DNA of 64,000 nucleotides from Terriglobus albidus (lineage in GTDB: Bacteria > Acidobacteriota > Terriglobia > Terriglobales > Acidobacteriaceae), in assembly GCF_008000815.1 (NCBI RefSeq), contig NZ_CP042806.1, positions 5,270,001 through 5,334,000 on the forward strand. Direction: 5' to 3'. The notes beneath the pieces were generated by a model. The model did no database searches. It saw only the letters and a program-made list of their open reading frames with translations, and had not been told where the DNA came from. The translations under genes were made by a program, and so were the position numbers. Positions 5,713 through 52,192 of this stretch are shown in pieces (within the stretch, counting starts at the first letter, position 1; every line of letters begins with the position of its first letter).

Positions 5713-8700
5713 TTAGAAGTTGATACGGGCGGCGAGCTGCAGCAGCCTTGGCTCGTTTACCTGGGTTGTGATCTGTCCCTGCTGCGCCGAGCCAATAGAG
5801 GTATTTGGCGCGCCGAACTGGACACGGTTGAACAGGTTGAACGATTCGACGCGAAGCTGCAGGATCACTTGCTCGGTCATGTGCGTGTCCTTGAACAAAG
5901 CGAGATCGAAGTTCGCTATGCCTGGAGCACGCAGAGTGCCATCGGTACGGGATTCGTTGCCGAACTTGAAGTTGCCTGGAGCAACGAAACATGAGGTGTT
6001 GAAGTATCCGCTGTTGGAAAACTTATCTCCTAACCGCGACTGCACACGTCCTCCGATGCCCTTATTGCAACCCTGAACCACGTTCGGACGTGTCGTACCG
6101 CCCAGCGAGTAGGTGCTGACGGTGTTTGAGGCCATGGAGAGTCCCAGCGGGTAGCCCTTCTGGAAGGTCGTTACACCATTGAAGCCCCAGCCGGAGACTA
6201 ACTTATCCATCACGCCACTGACGCCGGCGGCAAAGTGCTGCCCACGGCCGAATGGCAGTGAGTAGACATAGCTGACGGTAAGACGCTGGCGCGAATCATA
6301 GCCGGAGAGCGCGTACTCTCCACCCAGATCGTTGTTGTTTTGATAGCCGGGAGCTCCGGTTGCCTCTAGCCAGGAGGTCAGCGACTCCGTGTTGGCCAGC
6401 AGCTTCGAGAAGGTATACGAGCCGAGCAGCACTCCGCCCGAAGTGAAGCGCTTCTCCATCTTCATCTGCAACGCGTTGTAGTTGCTGACGCCCACATAGT
6501 TACCCGTGTTGGAGATGGCTCCATACTGCGGGAACGGACGATAGAGCTGCGTGGAGTTGATGGTGGCATACTGCTGCGAGCCCTGATTGAACGCTGCTCG
6601 GTTGAACGGATTCGGAACCGTCTTGGTGAGGAAGCACGCGCTCGACAGGTTTGCAGTTGAGCCCACGCAGTTGGGGTCACTCGCCGCCTGATTCAGATAC
6701 GAGGCCGCGACCTGGTTGATGCTGTGGCTGTTCGGCAGGTGAGAACCATGCAGACCGGCATAAGCAGCTTCGAGTGCAACTCCGAGCGGGAGTTGACGCT
6801 GGATGGCGAAGTTCCACTGGTAGGTGGCGCCGTTCTCTTCATCCTTCTGCAGCGCATTTGCGGAGCCGCCGAGCAGCAGGTTCTGGTAGTTGGCTCCGCG
6901 GCCGGGAGCGGGCGTAATGCCGCTCGGCAACGGATTATCCAGCGTAGCGTTCGGAGTCTTGCCCGAGTCCAACGTGGTAACCGGATTGTTGGTGATGTAG
7001 GAGAGCGGCGACTGCACCGGCGACTCCGGGAACTGCAGGATTGCGGGGATCACAAACTTACCCCAGCCGGCACGAACGACCGTCTTATCATCCGGTCTCC
7101 ATGCCAAACCGAGACGCCCCGAGAAGTTGGCGAAGTGCTCGTTGCGGGTTCCCTGCCCCGGAGACACAAGATCATAGGCTCCGGTCACTGCCCGGCCGTT
7201 GATCGTAATGTTGCCGAGAACCGGATTCACCTCGTTGGGATTGAAGGTGGCGATCAGGTTGTTGGTCTCGCGGAACGTACCCGGAATCTCATACCGCAGA
7301 CCGACGTTCAGAGTCAGCCGTGGGGTCAGGTTCCAGTTGTCCTGCACGTAGTAGCCCTGGTAGTAGATGGTGCTGAACGTCGGCGGCGCAATCTGCACCA
7401 CACTTGCAGACGACGCCTGATCGACCATGTAGCCCATCAGAAATGAGGCGAAGGGATGTCCACCCGCCGCGTTGTTTCCAAACGAGGACATGAAGGTGTT
7501 GAACTGGAACGATCCGCCGGGGCTGTTGTTCTGGAAGTACTTCATCTCCATGCGGCGCAGATCCACACCCGCCTTGATGGTGTGGGTTCTGATGGTCTTC
7601 GTAATGGTCGGAGCAATGACGTAGTTGTTGTTGACTGAGAAGATATAGCCGGTACCAATTCCGTTGACCGTCGGGTTCGACAACGCAATTGCGGGCACCG
7701 TGGTCGAGCTCGGCACATTGTTCAGGCCGGAGATAGTTCCCATGTACGAGGGGAAACCGAGTTTGGTCTCGTCATACCCCAGGGTTCCAGGCGTACGAAC
7801 GTAGTTCCAGCGGGTGAAGGAGAGCCGCAGATCGCCTACCAGAGTCGGGCTGAACATGTACGAGTCACCGACAACGGTCTGGTAAGTCTTGAACGACTCG
7901 GGCGAAATGGGATCGCCGGAACGGAGACCATTCTTGTACGGATCCGATGCGGCGTTGTTTGAGTTCCACTGCGTATAACGGCCGAAGAGATTCTGCTTAT
8001 CGCCGATCTTGAAATCGACGCGGCCGTTGTACTGGTCGTTCGTGCCACCGGAACCGGCATAGGCTACGAAGTTATTGGTCACACCGGCACGTGTGGGCTG
8101 CGCATAGTACGGGAAGGCCAGCAAGTTGGTGGCGACCTTACTCCAGCGAGCCTGCGGAATGATGTTGTTCGGATACGGTGTGCGCGGGCCGGTATAACCA
8201 GGGCATCCCTGGCCTGCCGATGCAGTGCCGCCGCATGCATCGTAGATTTGCCCCGCGGTGGCTACCGAAGCCGGGCTGCCTGACGCATTGGTGCAGAAGC
8301 CGGTCGATGAGTTGAGGGTGCACAGTTCACTGAAGTCGCCTGTGCGCATCTTTACCGTCGGTACCGTGTAGTTATAGAGGCGCTTCTGCGCCTGCCGGTA
8401 GCCCTGGTAGTCGAAAAATCCAAAGACCTTATCCTTGAAGATCGGGAAGCCGATATTCCCACCGAACTGGTTCTGGTGGTACGGATTCTTGCCCAGAACG
8501 TTTGCCGGAACATCTGTATGCTTCGCGAAGTACGGGGTCGAGTTGAAGATCGTGTTGCGGACGTACTCGTATACCGTTCCGTGAATCTTATTCGAACCTG
8601 ACTTGCTGGCGATGTTGACGACGCCGCCGGTGTACATACCGTACTCAGCCGTGTTGTTGCTGGTCTGAACGCGGAATTCCTGTACAGCGTCCTGCGACGG

Positions 8701-43552: not shown

Positions 43553-44016
43553 GGCGAGCTGAGGCATCAACGGCAGCCCAAGTTCCCACTATCTTTTCTA
43601 TTTTGATTTCAACCGGTTGGTTATCGATTCTTCGCGGTCTCACCGCGAAGAATCGAATATCGCGCTACGCGCGATCGTCTTGCTTAAGGGCACGGCTTCA
43701 GCCGCGCCAAAACAGTGCTTGAAAGATTTGCGGCTTTAGCCGCTGAGGGTGGTCAATCAGATCAGGTACCTCAGCGGCTAAAGCCGCAATCTTTACTGAT
43801 GCCATTACGGGACGGCTGAAGCCGTCCCCTTAAGCAAGGCATTCGCGTTGCGCGAACGAAAACGCGGCAGTGCCGTACCTTAAATTCTCTCAAGCAATCC
43901 TTCACTTCACGGCTCCAACCACGAAGACAAAGCAGGTCCTTCGCTGACCCACCCCAGCCAGCGAAGCTGGCTGGGGGCCCCGTCCGCTCAGGATGACAAC
44001 AAAGACGGATTGTTGT
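43553..44016. repeat. Repeat-filled spacer with large palindrome copy 2
   Basis: No gene is supported. The palindrome spans 43680-43837. Its right arm (43809-43837) is identical to the right arm of copy 1 (5457-5485), and its left arm (43680 onward) has a few changes. The inner arms (43730-43748 and 43769-43787) are identical to those of copy 1. The loop is only 20 bases, while copy 1 carries an inserted module there. A hairpin CAGCCAGCGAAGCTGGCTG lies at about 43950-43975. The flanking genes are convergent. Confidence 0.8.
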
Positions 44017-45729
44017 TTATGGCAGGTCCGTCTCAAAGAGCTTCTGAACGACCTTCCAGCTATCGCGGCGTTCCCGCTCGGTATTCACCACACCCCAGCG
44101 GCGGATGCCATCAGCCGGTGTTCCACGAATAAATGACCGGTAGTCGTTCCATGTCCACAGCGAACCCCCGATCATGTATGGCCGCTGCTTTATCGCCGTC
44201 ATCGCCTCCGTGATATCCGCAATGCGCTGTGGATCGTGGATGCCGGGCTCGCCCATCTTGCCGAACTCCGTCACGAAGATGGGCTTGTCCGGAAAGAGCT
44301 CATGGGCACGGTCGAAGCGCCTGGCATAGTCGCCATAGACATTGATGGAGACAAAGTCGCAGTACTGGCTTGCCTCATCGGTACCGGTCTTCACCGCGGC
44401 ATCGCCGGTGTAGCGCGAGGCGAAAGTGATCAGGCGTGTTGCATCCAGACCGAGCGTGAAGGCGCGCATGTCGCGAGTCCAGTCGCGGCCTTCCTGCGTG
44501 TATGACTCATACTCGTTGCCGACGCTCCAGGCGACGACCGAGGGATGATTCCAGTCCTGCTCCATCATCTCCTGCATCTGCTGCTTCCAGCGTGCGCGGA
44601 TACCGGCGTCGCCCATCTGCCATGCGCTGAAGTTCCAGTTCCCTGCTTCGGGGATCAACAGCATGCCGTGACGATCCGCAAAGTCGAGCACGGCCTGCGT
44701 CTGCGGATAGTGCGCGATGCGCATCATGCGCATGTTGTCCGCCAGCATATCGCTCAGGTCCCGCTCCACAATCGCATCCGACTCGCGGAGACCTTCCTTC
44801 ATGTCTTCCGAGACACGGTTGGCCCCGTTCAGATGCACCTCTTTTCCGTTCAACAGCAGACGCGTTCCGCTGACCTGAACCTTGCGGACACCGACGTGTG
44901 CGGTGAACTCATCGTCAGCTACCTGCAGCTTCGCGTCATACAGAAATGGATCGCGGACACTCCACAGATGAGCGCTGTTGAGCGTTCCCTTCCAGGTGAC
45001 ACTGGCATCACCGTTCGCCGGGACGTTGACGGCGCGAAAGCCTGCAGTCAGGCCGGCAGCTTCTCCTTTGACGGTTGCCGATGCTGCCCGCTCGCCCGCA
45101 TTGTGCAAGGTTGCCCGGACAGTGATGGTCGCCGCACCCGTCTTCAAATCGGGATCGGCGTCGACCTTCACACTACGGAAGTACACCGGGTCACCGATCT
45201 CGATGTGGACCGGACGGACGATGCCGCCGTACGGCAGCCAGCCCACGATCGTTGCCTTGCCCACGCCGTCCGGCGTGAACTTGTCCGTCGATGGATGGCC
45301 GGTCGCCAGCGCCGGAATCGAAGTAAAAGTAGGCGTGTTATCGACGTCCACGACGACGAAGTTCTTACCGGGATGCACCAGGCGCGTGATGTCCAGGTCG
45401 AAGGCGGTGTAGCCACCTTCATGCGTTCCCGCGAGTTTGCCGTTCACCCAGACCTGGGCGACATCGTAGACCGCATCGAAGTGCAGCCGGGCGATCTTTC
45501 CCGCAGGAAGTGCCGGCATATCGAAGTCGCGGTGATACATGGCATGGCCGATGTACTTCTCGTGTCCTTCGTCGACCAGCCAGGAGTGCGGCACGCTCAC
45601 CGGCTTCCATTGTTCCTCCAGGGTGGTGCGGAAGCTCCAGCCGGCGCCATCGAGGTCAATCTTTGTTGTGGCATGTACAAAGCGGCAGGAAAGGAACAGG
45701 GTCAAGGCAAGCAGGGCGATACGCTTCAC
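44017..45729 (-). CDS. GH2-family glycosidase (beta-galactosidase/beta-glucuronidase-like)
   Basis: The 570-residue protein has a signal peptide (MKRIALLALTLFLSCRFVHA), a sugar-binding jelly roll (about 25-185), an immunoglobulin-like domain (about 190-285) and a catalytic barrel. The acid/base is Glu406 in WSVGNEYESY and the nucleophile is Glu488 in FVTEFGKMG. The length fits beta-glucuronidase-like or short beta-galactosidase GH2 members. It starts at GTG with GGAGG 6 bp upstream. An exact LacI-type operator lies 23 bp before the start, and the lacI-type regulator gene lies upstream on the same strand. Confidence 0.88.
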   Translation of the reverse strand: MKRIALLALTLFLSCRFVHATTKIDLDGAGWSFRTTLEEQWKPVSVPHSWLVDEGHEKYIGHAMYHRDFDMPALPAGKIARLHFDAVYDVAQVWVNGKLAGTHEGGYTAFDLDITRLVHPGKNFVVVDVDNTPTFTSIPALATGHPSTDKFTPDGVGKATIVGWLPYGGIVRPVHIEIGDPVYFRSVKVDADPDLKTGAATITVRATLHNAGERAASATVKGEAAGLTAGFRAVNVPANGDASVTWKGTLNSAHLWSVRDPFLYDAKLQVADDEFTAHVGVRKVQVSGTRLLLNGKEVHLNGANRVSEDMKEGLRESDAIVERDLSDMLADNMRMMRIAHYPQTQAVLDFADRHGMLLIPEAGNWNFSAWQMGDAGIRARWKQQMQEMMEQDWNHPSVVAWSVGNEYESYTQEGRDWTRDMRAFTLGLDATRLITFASRYTGDAAVKTGTDEASQYCDFVSINVYGDYARRFDRAHELFPDKPIFVTEFGKMGEPGIHDPQRIADITEAMTAIKQRPYMIGGSLWTWNDYRSFIRGTPADGIRRWGVVNTERERRDSWKVVQKLFETDLP

Positions 45730-45752
45730 GAAAAACCTCCGAGAGGGTGAGG

Positions 45753-45764
45753 TTAACCGTTTAA
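45753..45764. promoter_or_regulatory. LacI-type operator 5, TTAACCGTTTAA
   Basis: This exact TTAANCGNTTAA site lies 23 bp before the GH2 start codon. Confidence 0.7.
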
Positions 45765-45883
45765 TTATTCGAAGGAACTATTGTCAAGTGTCTTTGTTCC
45801 CTGATCGTCAATAGAACGGTCGCGCGTAGCGCGATACCCCACATAAGCTTCGCGTATGTGGGGCACCCGGATCTGTGCACTAT

Positions 45884-46918
45884 TCAGGCGGTGCTGCCGG
45901 GGATGAGTTCGTAGGGGAGGAAGACTCGCTGCGGCAGAACCCCGGCATTTTCGATCGTGTCGATCAGAAGATCTGCTGCCAGTTCGCCCATGCGGAAGGT
46001 GGGGATGGTGAACGTCGTCGGACGCGGGCGGAGATGATCGCTCGAGCCCGTGTTGCCGCGGTTTAACACGGCAATGTCTCCAGGAATCGAGATGCCGCGC
46101 ATCTCGGCGTAGTCATAAAAGTCCAGCAGAAGCTGGTCATCGGCGGTAAAGATGGCCGTTGGTCGTTTGCGTTTGGTGGAGAACCAGGTATCCAGAATGC
46201 GGATCCCCTCGGCCCGTTCGTAACCAGTACAGCCGATCCGCTCCTGCGGCAGGTCGAGCCCATAGCCCGCGAGTCCTTTGCGCAGGCCTGCGACCAGCCG
46301 CTGATGCCCGGGCAGCGTTGCCGATCCGCTGAAGAAGGCAACCTGCCGGTGTCCGTGCTCCGCGAGATATTCGGCAGCGGCCTGGCCAATGGCGGCATCA
46401 TCTACGCCGACATAGTTGATGGGCGCCTTACCGTAATAGGAGTTGATCATCGAGAACTTGATCTGGGCCCGCTGCAGCTCATCGATGGTCTTGTTCACAT
46501 CCTGAGACGTACAGGAACGCGTGTTGATGAAGATAATGCCGTCCGTAAAGCGGCTCTCCAGCATCTGATCGCGGGTCTCGCGCCCCGGTTTGCCGGTCGG
46601 CGAAAAGATCAGCAGGTTATAGCCCCGGCGCATGAGGGCGCTCTGTATACCTGAGAGCGCCTGCGCGATGAACTGGTTAAAAAAGATGGGGTCGCGCATG
46701 GGCACAACCAACCCAAGCAGCCTGGTCCGCTTTTCCGCAAGCGCCCGCGCCAGCTCATTGGGCTTATAACCCATCTCGCGAGCGATCTGGATAATACGCT
46801 CGCGCAGCTGCGCACTTACGCGCGGTGAGCCGGTCTTATTAAGGGCGATGGAAACAGCAGCAATCGAGACACCTGCAGCCTTGGCAATATCTGCAAGCTT
46901 TGGGGCCGACGATCTCAT
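45884..46918 (-). CDS. LacI-family transcriptional regulator
   Basis: The 344-residue protein has the LacI headpiece (KLADIAKAAGVSIAAVSIALN, residues about 7-27, and the hinge ELARALAEKRTRLLGLVVP) followed by a periplasmic-binding-protein-like effector domain (YVGVDDAAIGQAAAEYLAEHGHRQVAFFSG). LacI proteins repress sugar-use genes by binding palindromes with a central CG. It is the only such protein near the five TTAANCGNTTAA sites and is their likely binder. No copy of that site lies before its own start; instead a CTGGTCTG/CAGACCAG inverted repeat is there. Confidence 0.92.
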   Translation of the reverse strand: MRSSAPKLADIAKAAGVSIAAVSIALNKTGSPRVSAQLRERIIQIAREMGYKPNELARALAEKRTRLLGLVVPMRDPIFFNQFIAQALSGIQSALMRRGYNLLIFSPTGKPGRETRDQMLESRFTDGIIFINTRSCTSQDVNKTIDELQRAQIKFSMINSYYGKAPINYVGVDDAAIGQAAAEYLAEHGHRQVAFFSGSATLPGHQRLVAGLRKGLAGYGLDLPQERIGCTGYERAEGIRILDTWFSTKRKRPTAIFTADDQLLLDFYDYAEMRGISIPGDIAVLNRGNTGSSDHLRPRPTTFTIPTFRMGELAADLLIDTIENAGVLPQRVFLPYELIPGSTA

Positions 46919-46934
46919 TCAGAAATTGTATGGT

Positions 46935-47037
46935 CTGGTCTGCGTTTTGGGCCAGAAAGAGTTTAGACAGACCAGTTACATATAGTGCAGGAAACACCTC
47001 CAGGTGCAACACCTACAGGGGCAACACCTTCAGGTAT
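46935..47037. repeat. Inverted repeat and triple 15-bp tandem repeat before lacI-type gene
   Basis: CTGGTCTG (46935-46942) and CAGACCAG (46968-46975) are exact inverted repeats, with starts 33 bp apart. Further out, three tandem 15-bp units lie at 46993-47007, 47008-47022 and 47023-47037 (AACACCTCCAGGTGC, AACACCTACAGGGGC, AACACCTTCAGGTAT). They lie in the promoter region of the LacI-type gene and just downstream of the subtilisin-fold gene. The function is unknown. Confidence 0.6.
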
Positions 47038-47051
47038 CGCCGTCCAAAGCT

Positions 47052-47753
47052 CTATCGGGGTTCGTCAGGACGCTGCGTTCTGGCGTGTTGAATGCTCGGG
47101 CTGAAAAACATGCCCTGTTCTACCGGTTCGCCGGCTCTTCGACTGGGCCAGACGCGTGCGAGATAGGCCGAAACACGTGCCACAGAGAAACTGACGCCAT
47201 TGAGATTCAACTCCGGAGAAGCGCCTGGAATTTCGCGTGGATAGGGCTGTGCACCGAAGACGACCTTGGAATTCATCTGCTTCACCGTACATGCCGCATC
47301 GCCGCACGCCGTATCAGCGACGACACCGACAACTCCCGGAAGCGTGCCCGGCAGCAGAAGCTTCTCCTCAATCGCGTAGGGCGCGACCAACACGGCCCCT
47401 GCTGCGGCGATACGCGCAACGGCCCTCTCGAAAGGTTCACGGTGATCTTCGTCGGCTGTTCCCAGGCTGAGATTAATAATCTGGATGGAATTGGCCGCAC
47501 ACCATTCCAGAGCACGCACAAGCATCGGTAGATTGGTCGAGAGCGTTTTATCGAAGATGCGTACCGGCACAATCGTTGCCTCGGGAGCCAGTGCATGAAT
47601 AAGCGCTGCCACGGAAGTTCCATACCCAAGGAGGTCAAGCGTGTCCTCAACTTTACCTTCAGCAGCCAGGTTCACACCTGCCGCGAGACAACCGACATGA
47701 GAGTGCAGCGGGTTGACACCACTATCGAGAACCGCGATCCGGAGACTGCTCAT
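47052..47753 (-). CDS. Small subtilisin-fold protein lacking catalytic His (likely pseudo-protease)
   Basis: The 233-residue protein has the S8/subtilase core without signal or prodomain: the Asp strand IAVLDSGVNPLHSHV (Asp10), INLSLG (about 93-98), and the Ser-helix region NGVSFSVARVSAYLAR (Ser188). At the His motif, where HGTxVA is expected, the sequence is LLGYGTSVAAL, with Tyr44 in the His position. The AAGN oxyanion segment reads VLVAPYA, so the Asn is also lost. Size and cytoplasmic nature resemble small subtilases that work with peptide or cofactor maturation (for example QhpE, about 215 residues), but this copy is probably inactive as a protease. A short frame ends in a 4-base ATGA overlap with its start. 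Confidence 0.75.
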   Translation of the reverse strand: MSSLRIAVLDSGVNPLHSHVGCLAAGVNLAAEGKVEDTLDLLGYGTSVAALIHALAPEATIVPVRIFDKTLSTNLPMLVRALEWCAANSIQIINLSLGTADEDHREPFERAVARIAAAGAVLVAPYAIEEKLLLPGTLPGVVGVVADTACGDAACTVKQMNSKVVFGAQPYPREIPGASPELNLNGVSFSVARVSAYLARVWPSRRAGEPVEQGMFFSPSIQHARTQRPDEPR

Positions 47754-47881
47754 ACCAGCACCGCCTCATCGACGGGTGTGAGCACGGGTTCGGTTTGGCG
47801 GCCTTGCATGTGCGCATCGCACTTGCACCAGGCCGTCAGGCGTCCCCACTCGACGATTCGCCCGCCAGCATCACAATAACC
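47750..47881 (-). other. Small, possibly frameshifted reading frame coupled to the subtilisin-fold gene
   Basis: On the minus strand a frame is open from 47881 and stops at 47750 in a 4-base overlap with the next start. It encodes CDAGGRIVEWGRLTAWCKCD and then AHMQGRQTEPVLTPVDEAVL with a final V. Its only ATG (47809) would give 19 residues. A second frame just upstream encodes LLEWADRVIVMLAGESSSGD. The two read as one protein if joined by a shift of one base near 47862-47872. Either the start is hidden, the gene is degenerate, or the match is chance. Confidence 0.3.
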
Positions 47882-48007
47882 CTATCTGCCCATTCGAGCA
47901 ATGCCTGACTGGTGAATAACGATCAGCGGTAATGCAAAAGACAAAAGCCGGACCGCGAGCGATTTCTCTCGCGGTCCCGCTTTCCTTATAAACAACAAAG
48001 GAATGTT

Positions 48008-49375
48008 TCAGTTCCGCTGCAATACAAATACTGCCGTAGAGTGCGGGTCGAGCGTTACATCGATCTTTGAGGCTCCGAGCTCTTCGCTTCCCTGCCAGGC
48101 GTTGCGCAGATGGAACTTGCCTGCGGGTAGCTGCAGTGCGGTCAGCTCTCGCTGGAAGGATACGGGGGAATCTCCGACGTTGAAGACGCCGACCGCATAC
48201 TGTCCACCGGGAAGGTCCGCGGTCCAGACAATCGTGGCGCCTTCATGCAGCACCTGTCTGCTTGCCATCGCGGTCTGGTCAATGCGGAGAATCTCCTTAT
48301 TCGTCAGAAGGCTCACCGTCGCGTCATCGAGCAGTGTGAGGTTCGCACCAACAATCAGCGGACTGCGCGCAAAGGCCCAGAGGCTCAGGTGCGTTCTCTG
48401 TTCCGCAGGAGTCAAACGGGTGTGACGTGGACCGGGGCCGACATCCGGGGATGGACGCAGCTCTCCCACCGGCAGCATGTCGGCATCGGGCCAGTGACCG
48501 GGCCCAGCAAACTTGCTCCACTGCGCCGCCAGCGCGAACTGATCTTTGACAGTGCGTGGGAACGATGCCTTGGTCTCCCATACATCCCAGATGTCATTCG
48601 AGATGCGCCACATCTGTGAGAGCGAGATCACCTCTTCGGCGTGCTCGATCGCTGTAGGTCCCGGCGAGAGGCTGAGGACGATGGGGCGTCCGCTCCTTTG
48701 AATCGCCAGTTTGATCTGTTTGATCTCGCTCACCTTGTACGGATGATCGGAGATGCAGTCGACCTTCAGGAAATCGACACCCCATGAGGCATACTGCTTC
48801 AACAACGCGTCGTACCAGGCCTGACCGGCGGGCGTGTCTTTCACGCCCCAGTTGGTCGGATCCCAGGGGCAGGCATCCGTCTGGTCAGCAGCGTCGGTCA
48901 CGGTAAACTTCGAGCCCTCGATAGGAAGGTTCTGTTTCACGCTCTCGCGCGGAATACCGCGCACGATGTGGATACCGAACTTCAGACCCTGGCTATGAAC
49001 CCAGCGTCCTACGGGCGTGAAGCCGACGTTCTTTCCGTTGACGAGCGCGGAGGGAAACCGTGCCGGCACCGGGATATAGCGGCCGTTGGCATCCAGTTCA
49101 TACTGCAGCAGCTCAGGATGCGGACGCGATTCCGGGTTCTTCAGGAACCAGCCCTCGTCGATGACGGCGTAGTCGTATCCGGCAGGTTTGAGCTTACTCA
49201 CCAGCGAGGAAACGTTTTCTCGAAACTGCTGTTCATTGACGCGCAGGCCATACGAGTCCCAACTGTTCCAACCCATCGGCGGACGCGGTGCAAGCTTTGG
49301 CGCTGCCGCATGCTGGGCCTGCGACAACGGCGCCAGGGCGAGACCGATGCCGAACACAATCATCTTTGTGAGTTT
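48008..49375 (-). CDS. GH27 alpha-galactosidase
   Basis: The protein has about 455 residues from TTG 49375, with a leader MKLTKMIVFGIGLALAPLSQ. It shows the GH27 hallmark PPMGWNSWDSYGL, the nucleophile Asp in GVDFLKVDCISD and the acid/base Asp in WRISNDIWD. A C-terminal beta-sandwich follows. It would cleave terminal alpha-galactose from oligosaccharides or polysaccharides in the periplasm or outside. TTG 49375 is preferred because GGAGG lies 9 bp upstream and yields a good leader; the frame extends to 49606 across the repeat element, which is unlikely to be coding. No LacI-type site was seen before it. Confidence 0.88.
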   Translation of the reverse strand, partial: KLTKMIVFGIGLALAPLSQAQHAAAPKLAPRPPMGWNSWDSYGLRVNEQQFRENVSSLVSKLKPAGYDYAVIDEGWFLKNPESRPHPELLQYELDANGRYIPVPARFPSALVNGKNVGFTPVGRWVHSQGLKFGIHIVRGIPRESVKQNLPIEGSKFTVTDAADQTDACPWDPTNWGVKDTPAGQAWYDALLKQYASWGVDFLKVDCISDHPYKVSEIKQIKLAIQRSGRPIVLSLSPGPTAIEHAEEVISLSQMWRISNDIWDVWETKASFPRTVKDQFALAAQWSKFAGPGHWPDADMLPVGELRPSPDVGPGPRHTRLTPAEQRTHLSLWAFARSPLIVGANLTLLDDATVSLLTNKEILRIDQTAMASRQVLHEGATIVWTADLPGGQYAVGVFNVGDSPVSFQRELTALQLPAGKFHLRNAWQGSEELGASKIDVTLDPHSTAVFVLQRN

Positions 49376-49422
49376 CAAAATCGACAACCTCCAGAGAACG
49401 TTTCCAACGGACTCAACCAGCT

Positions 49423-49538
49423 TAGAGCATTTTTCCCTGTTGCTGGGCATTCCGAAGGTGAGGTGAAGCGGCGTTTTCATTGCGGAAAACGCCCATAGAT
49501 GCAGAAGCCCTACTCTACACCTACAGGGAAATGCTCTA
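49423..49538 (+). repeat. MITE-like TAG-edge element, copy 3
   Basis: This 116-bp copy has the same orientation as copy 1. It begins TAGAGCATTTTTCCCTGTTG and ends ACAGGGAAATGCTCTA, flanked by TA at both ends. Its right-edge TAG, read on the minus strand, is the stop codon of the PQQ dehydrogenase gene. The other edge lies in the upstream region of the GH27 gene. Confidence 0.85.
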
Positions 49539-51668
49539 CGGCAAAGCGAAGGCAATATACGCGGCACCCTGTGGACCTGACTTGTCACGGGCACCGCTCG
49601 CCGCAATCACGACGTACTGTTTGCCGTTCACCGAGTAGGTTGCCGGAGTCGCGGCGCCGGCATACGGCAGCTCCGCGGACCACAGCAGCTTACCTGTCCT
49701 GGCACCGAAGGCTCGGAACTTCCGGTCATAAATCGTCGCCCCGATGAAGACAATGCCTCCCGCCGTAACCACCGGGCCTCCGTATCCTTCCGATCCTGTA
49801 TTCGGCATTCCCTGCTTTACCAACTCGGGATACTCGCCCAGCGGAACCCGCCAGAGATACTTGCCCGTGTTCAGGTCGATGGCATTTAGCGTTCCCCATG
49901 GCGGCTGCACCGCTGGATAGCCATCCTTGTCCTGGAACTTCCGGTAGCCGGTGAACTGATACGGCGCATCATCTACCCCCTTGCTTGCCAATTCTCGCCC
50001 GGATCCAGGAGACTTCGTATCTTCCGTTCCGGTCAGATATCCGACCAGCGCGCGGAGCTTCTCTCCCGTCAGCCCTGGAAACGATGGCATGCGTCCGGAG
50101 CCGCCGTGAATCCGCTGCTCGATCTCGCGCACGGATATGCGGCCGCCAATGTCGACCAGTGATGGAAACTCCGGCGGATTTCCCTGCCGTTCTTTGCCGT
50201 GACAGAACGCGCATTGGCTTTGATAGACCGTCTCGCCCGGGCTAGCGTTGGCTTTGGCCTTCGTCAGTCCCCCCGTCCAGGGGATATCGTTGGAGTTCAG
50301 GATGAGCACACCCGCCGGGGTGACCGCAGAACCGCCCCACTCCACGCCGCCATCGAAACCGGGAAAGACGATCGTCTGCTTATCCATGCTCATGGGAACA
50401 AAAAGCCCGCCCCCCTTCATGGCACGGAACTCTTTCAACACCTGCTCGTGCACCTCGGGTGTGCGTGTGCTGAGGATCGACTCCGTCAGTACCTGCCGAG
50501 CATACGGCGCGGGCATTGTCGATACTGGCTGCGTCGGCGAGGTGGTCTCCCCCTCAACGTCCGAAGTTGGGAAGCCGCGTTCTTCAATAGGAAAGACGGG
50601 CTTGCCGGTTACGCGGTCCAGCACGAAGAGGAAGCCCTGCTTCGTCGGCTGAGCAATGGCATCGATCTTCTTTCCGTCATGGACAACGGTCAGCAGCGTG
50701 GACGGCGACGGAAAATCACGGTCCCAGATGTCGTGATGCACACCCTGGAAGTGCCACAGCAGTTTGCCCGTCGCAGCATCCAGCGCGAGCAGCGTATTCG
50801 CGTACAGGTTCTTGCCGGCGCGGTCGGCTCCGTAGAAATCTGACGCGGCCGACCCGGTAGGCACATAGACGATGCCCCGCTTCTCATCGAGAGCCATGCC
50901 GCTCCAGTTATTCGCGGCTCCGGCTTTCTGCCATGCTCCAGCAGGCCAGGTCTCGTAGCCGGGCTCACCAGGATGAGGAATGGTGTGGAAGCTCCACTGC
51001 AGCTTTCCTGTCTTCACGTCATAGGCACGGATATCGCCGCGCGCTGCAGGCTTTGTCTCGGCGGTGCGAAAGCCAACGATCAACAGATTTCGGAAGATCA
51101 CTCCCGGAGTCGTCGCCACCACCGGCAATTCTTGAAAATCGTCCGTTCCTAGTCCTTTCCTGAGATCGATTCGTCCCTGCTCTCCGAAGGATGGAATGGG
51201 CTTCCCATCCTCTGGATTGAGCACATACACATAATTCATGATGAAGGCGTAGAGGCGCTTCTCTCGGCCATCGCTCCACCAGGAGAACCCTCGGCTCGGC
51301 TGCGCCGCCGTAATGCCAGAGTCGAAACTCCACTGCTTCTCGCCTGTAGCAGCATTCAAAGCCACGACCCGAAGCGCGGGTGTATAGGCATATAGCGTGC
51401 CATCGACTACTAGCGGATTCGTCTGTAGCCCACCGCTGGTACCGGCGTCGAAGCGCCACACCTGCTTCAACTGAGAGACATTCTCCGGCGTGATTTGTGT
51501 CAGGGGAGAGTAGTGCGCATTGTCTTTCCCGCCGTTATAGGCGAGCCAGCCCACCTGTTTTTGCGCCGTGCCGGCTGCCGAAACTGTATGGAGGCCAGAG
51601 GTCCTTAGTAAGAGAAAGCCTGCACCTGCCATAGCGAACAGGACACCCAGCCGGCTGGTTCGTTGCAC
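49536..51668 (-). CDS. PQQ-dependent dehydrogenase with cytochrome c domain 2
   Basis: The 710-residue protein is a paralogue of the enzyme at 24061: leader (LFAMAGAGFLLL), quinoprotein propeller repeats (ATGEKQWSFDSG, TGKLQWSFHTIPHPGEPGYE, TGKLLWHFQGVHHDIWDRD), a CAFCH heme site near residue 488 with Met in MPSFPGL, and a final propeller blade. It oxidises a sugar or alcohol in the periplasm. Start GTG 51668 has GGAG 4 bp upstream. Unlike its paralogue it has no TTGC-N7-GCAA pair in front, so it is probably controlled differently. Its stop codon coincides with the edge of repeat copy 3. Confidence 0.88.
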   Translation of the reverse strand: MQRTSRLGVLFAMAGAGFLLLRTSGLHTVSAAGTAQKQVGWLAYNGGKDNAHYSPLTQITPENVSQLKQVWRFDAGTSGGLQTNPLVVDGTLYAYTPALRVVALNAATGEKQWSFDSGITAAQPSRGFSWWSDGREKRLYAFIMNYVYVLNPEDGKPIPSFGEQGRIDLRKGLGTDDFQELPVVATTPGVIFRNLLIVGFRTAETKPAARGDIRAYDVKTGKLQWSFHTIPHPGEPGYETWPAGAWQKAGAANNWSGMALDEKRGIVYVPTGSAASDFYGADRAGKNLYANTLLALDAATGKLLWHFQGVHHDIWDRDFPSPSTLLTVVHDGKKIDAIAQPTKQGFLFVLDRVTGKPVFPIEERGFPTSDVEGETTSPTQPVSTMPAPYARQVLTESILSTRTPEVHEQVLKEFRAMKGGGLFVPMSMDKQTIVFPGFDGGVEWGGSAVTPAGVLILNSNDIPWTGGLTKAKANASPGETVYQSQCAFCHGKERQGNPPEFPSLVDIGGRISVREIEQRIHGGSGRMPSFPGLTGEKLRALVGYLTGTEDTKSPGSGRELASKGVDDAPYQFTGYRKFQDKDGYPAVQPPWGTLNAIDLNTGKYLWRVPLGEYPELVKQGMPNTGSEGYGGPVVTAGGIVFIGATIYDRKFRAFGARTGKLLWSAELPYAGAATPATYSVNGKQYVVIAASGARDKSGPQGAAYIAFALP

Positions 51669-52192
51669 GATACTCCACCTCCGATGGCCAATGGATCGAC
51701 ACAGAGATTGTCTACTGCGTGCGGTCTATTTGGGAATGGAGAAGTGTTCTGCTATGGAAGCGAGCACCTGAGTATCGACAAATTCGCCTTTCGCTGAAGA
51801 ACTATAGGGCGGGCCTTCAGCCCTTGGACTTCCAACCGGCCTGATACCTGGGGCGTTGCCCGGCTGGTATAGAACGCGCCTTTCCACCCCAATGAACAAA
51901 GTTCATTGGGGACCCCGGCCTTCAGCGCTGAGACCCATGGCAAGCTTTGTTTGTCATTTCGTAGCGCAGCGGAGAAATCTGCTTTTCCACTTTTTCTACC
52001 GGGGTCCCCAACGAACTGTGTTCGTTGGGGTGAATGCTCGCAACGCCAGGATGGGTGAGGAATACCCTAAATTCCTAACAAGCTACAGAATGAATCTTTC
52101 CATCTGCTCTAAGTGGACGCGACTATGCCCACTCCGCTTATGCTTATCCTGCTATCTTGATCCCCCATCCGACACTCTTGTGGAGCTTTTGA
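51669..52192. repeat. Composite dispersed repeat, copy 2
   Basis: From about 51785 to 52090 the spacer contains the same ordered modules as 20707-20945: CCTGGGGCGTTGCCC, a hairpin around CCCCAATGAACAAAGTTCATT, the GTCATTTCG to GAAATCTGCTT module, a second hairpin CCCCAACGAAC/GTTCGTTGGGG, and the CTCGCAACGC tail. No gene is supported. The promoter of the acetylesterase gene should lie in the last 100 bases. Confidence 0.7.

Follow-up and report, generated by a model that had tools for sequence, protein, structure and literature searches.

The locus and its subtilase-type gene

The window (the whole 64,000-nucleotide stretch of Terriglobus albidus DNA that was analysed, to which unprefixed positions refer) carries a minus-strand open reading frame at 47052-47753(-), encoding a protein of 233 residues from an ATG. 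The product is matched by the Pfam model Peptidase_S8 (PF00082) with an E-value of 2.6e-8 and, over its full length, by the NCBIfam equivalog model of QhpE (NF049966) at 165.3 bits against a cut-off of 165; its counterparts in two relatives reach 165.9 and 176.9 bits on the same model. This qhpE-type gene, hereafter the orphan, comprises a constrained subtilase domain of approximately residues 1-204 followed by an unconstrained tail from about residue 205. QhpE itself is described to trim QhpC, the gamma subunit of quinohemoprotein amine dehydrogenase, removing a 28-residue leader from crosslinked QhpC in a single turnover prior to export by QhpF (PMC7876137).

The order GH27 gene, debris, orphan, lacI-type gene and GH2 gene is the same in all three genomes that carry the orphan. 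The debris, located at 47750-47915(-) with 47915 as an approximate end, was assigned to the 3' end of qhpF, an ABC exporter gene, by aligning its DNA to the window genome's intact qhpF and to the two relatives. Its last ~60 nt before the start codon (47754-47812(-)) are unusually alike between the orphans, at 91-97% compared to 84-85% for the debris above, and may be regulatory, with a possible leader or promoter as candidate. A scan of 46850-48100 returned no sigma-70-type promoter upstream (0 found, 0.4 expected). Between the GH27 gene and the debris, a terminator-like hairpin was found at 47950-47977(-); the two sites recorded are the same hairpin on both strands, and 1.2 were expected in shuffles. 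On the other side, between the orphan and the lacI-type gene, a 15-bp unit (AACACCTCCAGGTGC type) is present three times in tandem at 46993-47037. At 49424-49540 lies an element of 117 bp with inverted ends, for which at least 41 matches in the window genome reach E 0.001 or better; of 323 first-look candidates, 40 were scored, and the true number may be higher. Judged by eye, one of the relatives (G008) has a sequence of similar appearance between its GH27 gene and its qhpF debris.

At the positions of the catalytic triad the orphan reads Asp10 (codon GAT, 47724-47726(-)), Tyr44 where the catalytic His is expected (TAT, 47622-47624(-)) and Ser188 (AGT, 47190-47192(-)), exactly as a first-pass annotation of this DNA had described it. 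That annotation left the conservation of Tyr44 to a comparison of orthologues, and the residue is kept in both orthologues found, i.e. in three out of three orphans, all of which read D/Y/S. Elsewhere in the family, His occupies column 44 in 60 of 60 QhpE-type rows, and GHGT is present in all ten further loci of the family search. A broader survey covered the best 80 of 386 confirmed relatives, with partly matched, more distant subtilases from about L098 on; here the triad Asp-His-Ser was found in 77 of the 80 loci, the exceptions being the two orphan orthologues and one truncated row. Among the 60 His-type rows (a count made without L098, all loci above L099 and the rows dropped from the tree), 42 columns reach a conservation of at least 85%. 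H44 is the one such column that is changed in every orphan yet not in the parent copy, whereas positions 125 and 190 are changed in the parent too and positions 47, 172 and 177 are each changed in one orphan. Nine changes, H44Y among them, map to the stem of the orphan group. Measured against these rows, the loss of His at position 44 is in excess of the family variation. The first-pass annotation also pointed to an APYA segment in place of the AAGN of the oxyanion segment. The reading of the letters stands, but its value as a sign of inactivation was rejected, as APYA is also present in the His-bearing operon QhpE of the window genome and family members differ in this segment.

An AlphaFold2 model of the orphan, with an alignment of 49 family sequences as input, reached a mean pLDDT of 88.6 and a pTM of 0.88, with a low-scoring or disordered tail from about residue 210. 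The model forms a full subtilisin fold with 6ube_S as best structural match (Z 23.2, rmsd 2.9, 206 aligned residues), so that the proposed modelling of the structure recovered the fold read from the sequence. The model opens directly with the first strand of the fold, which leaves no space for a signal or prodomain, in agreement with the earlier description. The closest solved folds (6ube, 3f49, 6u9l) are subtilisins whose activity, by their titles, depends on an added small molecule; they are designed enzymes and not natural variants. The His is presumably the residue that was removed in these three.

A subtilisin is expected to lose most of its activity along with the catalytic His, which argues against the orphan still being an enzyme of changed chemistry, in which Ser188 would be activated by Tyr44, by a group of the substrate (substrate-assisted catalysis) or by a small molecule. 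Moreover, no new conserved base candidate was found in the orphans, His17 and His19 being conserved family-wide, and the retention of Asp and Ser over a short divergence carries little weight. Still, Asp10 and Ser188, together with G186 and N183 beside Ser188, are unchanged in all three orphans, and the retained Asp-Ser pair would also suit residual or unusual catalysis. Among the best structural matches are engineered subtilisins whose titles call them azide-, anion- or imidazole-triggered, and a slow reaction could suffice, given that QhpE is described as single-turnover (PMC7876137). On balance, changed chemistry is considered improbable.

Descent from the qhp operon and the remains of qhpF

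A genome search located a second QhpE copy in the window genome at C1:2680541-2681179, with 70% identity to the orphan over residues 1-213. This copy sits in a qhp operon, where QhpA, QhpD and QhpC matches lie above their cut-offs and an ABC exporter gene in the qhpF place is followed by qhpE; QhpB, at 76.6 bits, is below its cut-off of 223.2. The operon QhpF matches only general exporter models among the matches listed (25 of 105). The gene in the qhpG place, which is on the other strand, has no NCBIfam family, and its name rests on its position and on matches in other qhp loci. The operon QhpE reads LGHGT and hence has the His, and the ATGA overlap of qhpF and qhpE is intact in this operon (L021: qhpF ends at 6545, qhpE starts at 6542).

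A tree built from 66 QhpE-type rows unites the three orphans (100/96) and places the operon QhpE of the window genome as their sister (100/98), with the QhpE of Edaphobacter modestus branching next (100/99). Left out of this tree were L022, L023, L025 and L026 (duplicates, or genes already represented by another row), the truncated L100, and L102-L120 except L107. Both the profile score and the branching inside the QhpE tree uphold the relation to QhpE that the first-pass annotation had suggested, and on this basis the orphan is a displaced paralogue of QhpE. Size, absence of a prodomain, the family columns other than His and the ATGA junction with qhpF are common to the orphan and QhpE. The orphan differs in the exchange of His for Tyr in all three orthologues, so that an Asp-His-Ser triad is missing, and in its setting: there is no surrounding operon, neither qhpC nor qhpD nor an intact qhpF lies alongside, the adjoining qhpF is dead, and qhpB, qhpC and qhpD were not found in two of the carriers. 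As side observations, the operon QhpE of another genome of the genus (G002) scores 163.3 bits, below the QhpE cut-off of 165, and L066, from a bin with the title "Bordetella parapertussis", falls beside a Bryobacterales QhpE in the tree (100/98); the bin is probably mislabelled.

Compared to the intact junction of the window genome, the ~165 bases before the orphan correspond to the qhpF 3' end at 67% identity over 176 columns, with seven gap events. Inside this debris lies the "cryptic short frame" of the first-pass annotation (47753-47881), which is open from a TAG at 47882-47884 to a TGA at 47750-47752, counts 43 codons with one internal ATG only, and indeed has no normal long start. Its overlap with the orphan start reads ATGA. 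The remark that two frames here could be joined by one base is accurate, since both match consecutive stretches of the C terminus of the window genome's own QhpF, ending in VDEAVLV. One base is lost relative to intact qhpF, and this lesion is common to all three orphan loci, including two independently assembled genomes. It is thus neither a sequencing error nor a private mutation, and the base error suspected at 47855-47880 was rejected. The further damage differs, with a stop directly after GGRIVE in one relative and an extra base fusing the frame into the protease frame in the other; the short frame is thus not conserved as a coding unit.

According to these alignments, the short frame is the frame-broken 3' end of qhpF and not a peptide gene, and the ATGA overlap is the inherited, ordinary qhpF/qhpE junction. 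The overlap had been taken as a sign of translational coupling in a pair of a pseudoenzyme and a peptide, the latter to be made from the short frame. The overlap exists; as a mark of such a pair it fails. Beyond the ATGA and the Cys/Trp content of the frame, that model has nothing to draw on, whereas the frame is qhpF debris without a proper start, broken differently in both relatives, and no conserved small precursor frame as in RiPP-type pairs lies upstream. The conservation of the short frame, on which the peptide reading had staked itself, was not observed. We regard the model as hardly credible and reject the peptide gene, while the pseudoenzyme half of the proposal survives.

Distribution of the orphan and of the rest of qhp

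In the genus sample, three of 19 genomes carry the orphan (G000, G008, G015) and two hold an operon QhpE (G000, G002). QhpD, QhpC and QhpB gave no match in G008 (100% complete) or in G015, the latter being a bin of 91% completeness in 410 contigs, whose absences are weaker. Searches for QhpF in these two relatives gave only distant transporters among the matches listed. The family sample (398 genomes of a larger group) includes 13 genomes with a QhpE-type match at E 1e-20 or better; QhpD is present in 11 of them, and the two without are G008 and G015. A lenient tblastn of window 44000-51999 plus L022 and L023 for remnants of qhpA, B, C, D and G near the orphan yielded only weak, chance-level matches besides QhpE and the qhpF end. 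Since the orphans form one group, sister to the operon QhpE, and share the same gene order, the duplication predates the split of the three species.

The distribution bears on a possible role of the orphan as decoy or chaperone for QhpC, binding the leader of the gamma-subunit precursor uncut and thereby tuning amine dehydrogenase maturation. Such a role would be consistent with descent from the QhpC-processing protease and with the QhpC and intact operon retained in the window genome. However, two of the three carriers are without detectable QhpC, QhpB and QhpD, yet their orphan is under the same constraint, and a QhpC decoy is very unlikely.

Two further loci with a lone or nearly lone qhpE were noted. 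Edaphobacter modestus has a full operon (L043) and a second locus (L051:4537-6687), where frame shifts disrupt qhpF in its 5' part and qhpE is intact with Asp-His-Ser; no qhpA-D was found within the 6 kb fetched on each side. On contig 330 of G373 (L135:5852-6499), a His-bearing QhpE gene was found without any further qhp gene in the 16 kb read. An operon-type QhpE copy is also present on contig 259 of this genome, for which a contamination of 4% is listed. Survival of a lone qhpE beyond its operon may have occurred more than once, and both a second function and merely the place of qhpE at the operon end are considered as reasons.

Selection on the orphan

For codons 1-204 of the three orphans, a codon model with transition/transversion fixed at 1 gave an omega of 0.134 (lnL -1458.40 vs -1530.90 at omega 1; p 2e-33). 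Counting methods provided a similar picture, with a whole-gene dN/dS among the three orphans of 0.15-0.19 and a value of 0.11-0.16 within codons 1-204, close to the 0.13 between two operon QhpE proteins; dN among the orphans is 0.07-0.10. The tail after residue 204 is unconstrained, with dN/dS values of 0.50-1.07 in the three pairs. Differences by codon position amount to 17/13/66, 24/16/75 and 24/16/67 of 204 each in the three pairs, an excess at third positions in every case (Fisher p 1.5e-14, 8.3e-15 and 7.4e-12). The three orphans align over 612 bp without a single indel. In the debris, by contrast, the three pairs differ by 7, 4 and 5 gap events over ~180 columns, a rate that by a crude estimate predicts ~27 indel events in the gene.

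The strength of the constraint depends on the yardstick. At the DNA level the gene is no more alike between the orphans than the debris (81-84% vs 80-83%), and if the debris is taken as neutral, arithmetic gives a constraint of ~0.35-0.5 of neutral, which is milder than the omega of 0.134, though this yardstick includes the unusually alike and possibly regulatory ~60 nt before the start codon. The open frames as such are weak evidence, because 94-257 of 4000 neutral simulations at a debris-like rate keep all three frames open; at synonymous-like rates, 1 to 8 of 2000 do so. The case for selection rests on the codon-position pattern and the absence of indels. Taking the two together with the codon model, the subtilase domain (codons 1-204) is under purifying selection, and as all three share Tyr44 and the qhpF damage, this selection acted on the His-less orphan itself.

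These data have to be weighed against the view of the orphan as a slowly decaying relic, in which qhpF broke first, qhpE then lost its His, and the gene is functionless and on its way out. The plainly dead upstream qhpF and the unconstrained tail after residue 204 are in line with decay, and dN/dS of the neighbouring genes is 0.009-0.070, placing the orphan 2-20 times higher. Leftover qhpE genes are moreover not unique to this locus, as seen in Edaphobacter modestus and G373. Conversely, neutrality is rejected for codons 1-204, third-position changes are in excess in all three pairs and the indels predicted from the debris rate did not occur. With Tyr44 and the debris shared, the measured divergence arose after the damage. 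Decay without function appears unlikely.

The orphan combines a subtilisin fold, the loss of a triad residue that is conserved among orthologues, and maintenance by selection, the latter being milder with the debris as neutral yardstick. It is conserved and is probably a functional pseudoprotease.

A protease fold probably kept for another task

We consider it fairly probable that the orphan is a QhpE-derived pseudoprotease kept for a job other than amine dehydrogenase maturation. As the comparisons show, a piece of the qhp operon, consisting of the qhpF 3' end and the whole of qhpE, became placed between the GH27 and lacI-type genes in an ancestor of the three species, either by duplication or by loss of the rest of the operon. 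qhpF decayed and the catalytic His was replaced by Tyr before the species split, while the subtilase domain stayed intact under purifying selection and the rest of qhp was not found in two of three carriers. Lacking the His, the Asp-Ser pair would be unable to run the normal subtilase reaction, or at best very slowly; for this reason the orphan most likely binds rather than cuts, as we infer. The kept fold and substrate cleft could hold a peptide or protein segment in the manner of a chaperone, sensor or regulator. Because two carriers yielded no QhpC match, the binding partner is probably not QhpC and rather another peptide or protein. Counting against the proposal, the orphan is known from three genomes only, one of them the 91%-complete bin.

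Subtilase folds kept for non-proteolytic tasks after loss of residues of the triad have been described for CspC and CspA of Clostridioides difficile (PMC6636752). The Csp pseudoproteases have a prodomain and a jelly-roll insert and have lost two triad residues. The orphan, in contrast, lost only the His, has no prodomain and originates from a RiPP-type maturation protease. A second parallel is PIMMS2 of Plasmodium, described as a subtilisin-like potential pseudoenzyme, in which the His is absent in some orthologues and the protein is still functional (PMC5520436). PIMMS2 differs in being a secreted, membrane-anchored eukaryotic protein of unrelated lineage and setting. In the open-licence literature we found neither a His-less QhpE nor a pseudoprotease tied to RiPP leader peptides; subscription papers fall largely outside this search.

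The locus has a practical consequence for annotation. The QhpE model passes the three His-less orphans as "subtilisin-like serine protease QhpE" and fails the operon QhpE of G002, so that an automated annotation would label the orphan as an active protease. In evolutionary terms, the orphan would represent a compact natural case of the transition from protease to non-protease, with a change at one family-invariant residue in an otherwise retained cleft. In two of three carriers the pathway of the original substrate was not detected; the third still has the active parent gene, and there parent and orphan together allow a direct comparison of active and inactive forms.

More speculatively, a QhpE-type protease that lost its operon and its His may have been recruited to a new role outside cofactor maturation, either within a glycan-use locus as a dedicated receptor or regulator that binds peptides, or as a natural Asp-Tyr-Ser subtilase with a new reaction; we hold this further step to be rather unlikely on present grounds. 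If true, it would mean that the peptides which QhpE-type folds can bind and handle are not limited to QhpC, and this second role may extend to further orphan qhpE genes, such as those of Edaphobacter modestus (L051) and of G373 contig 330.
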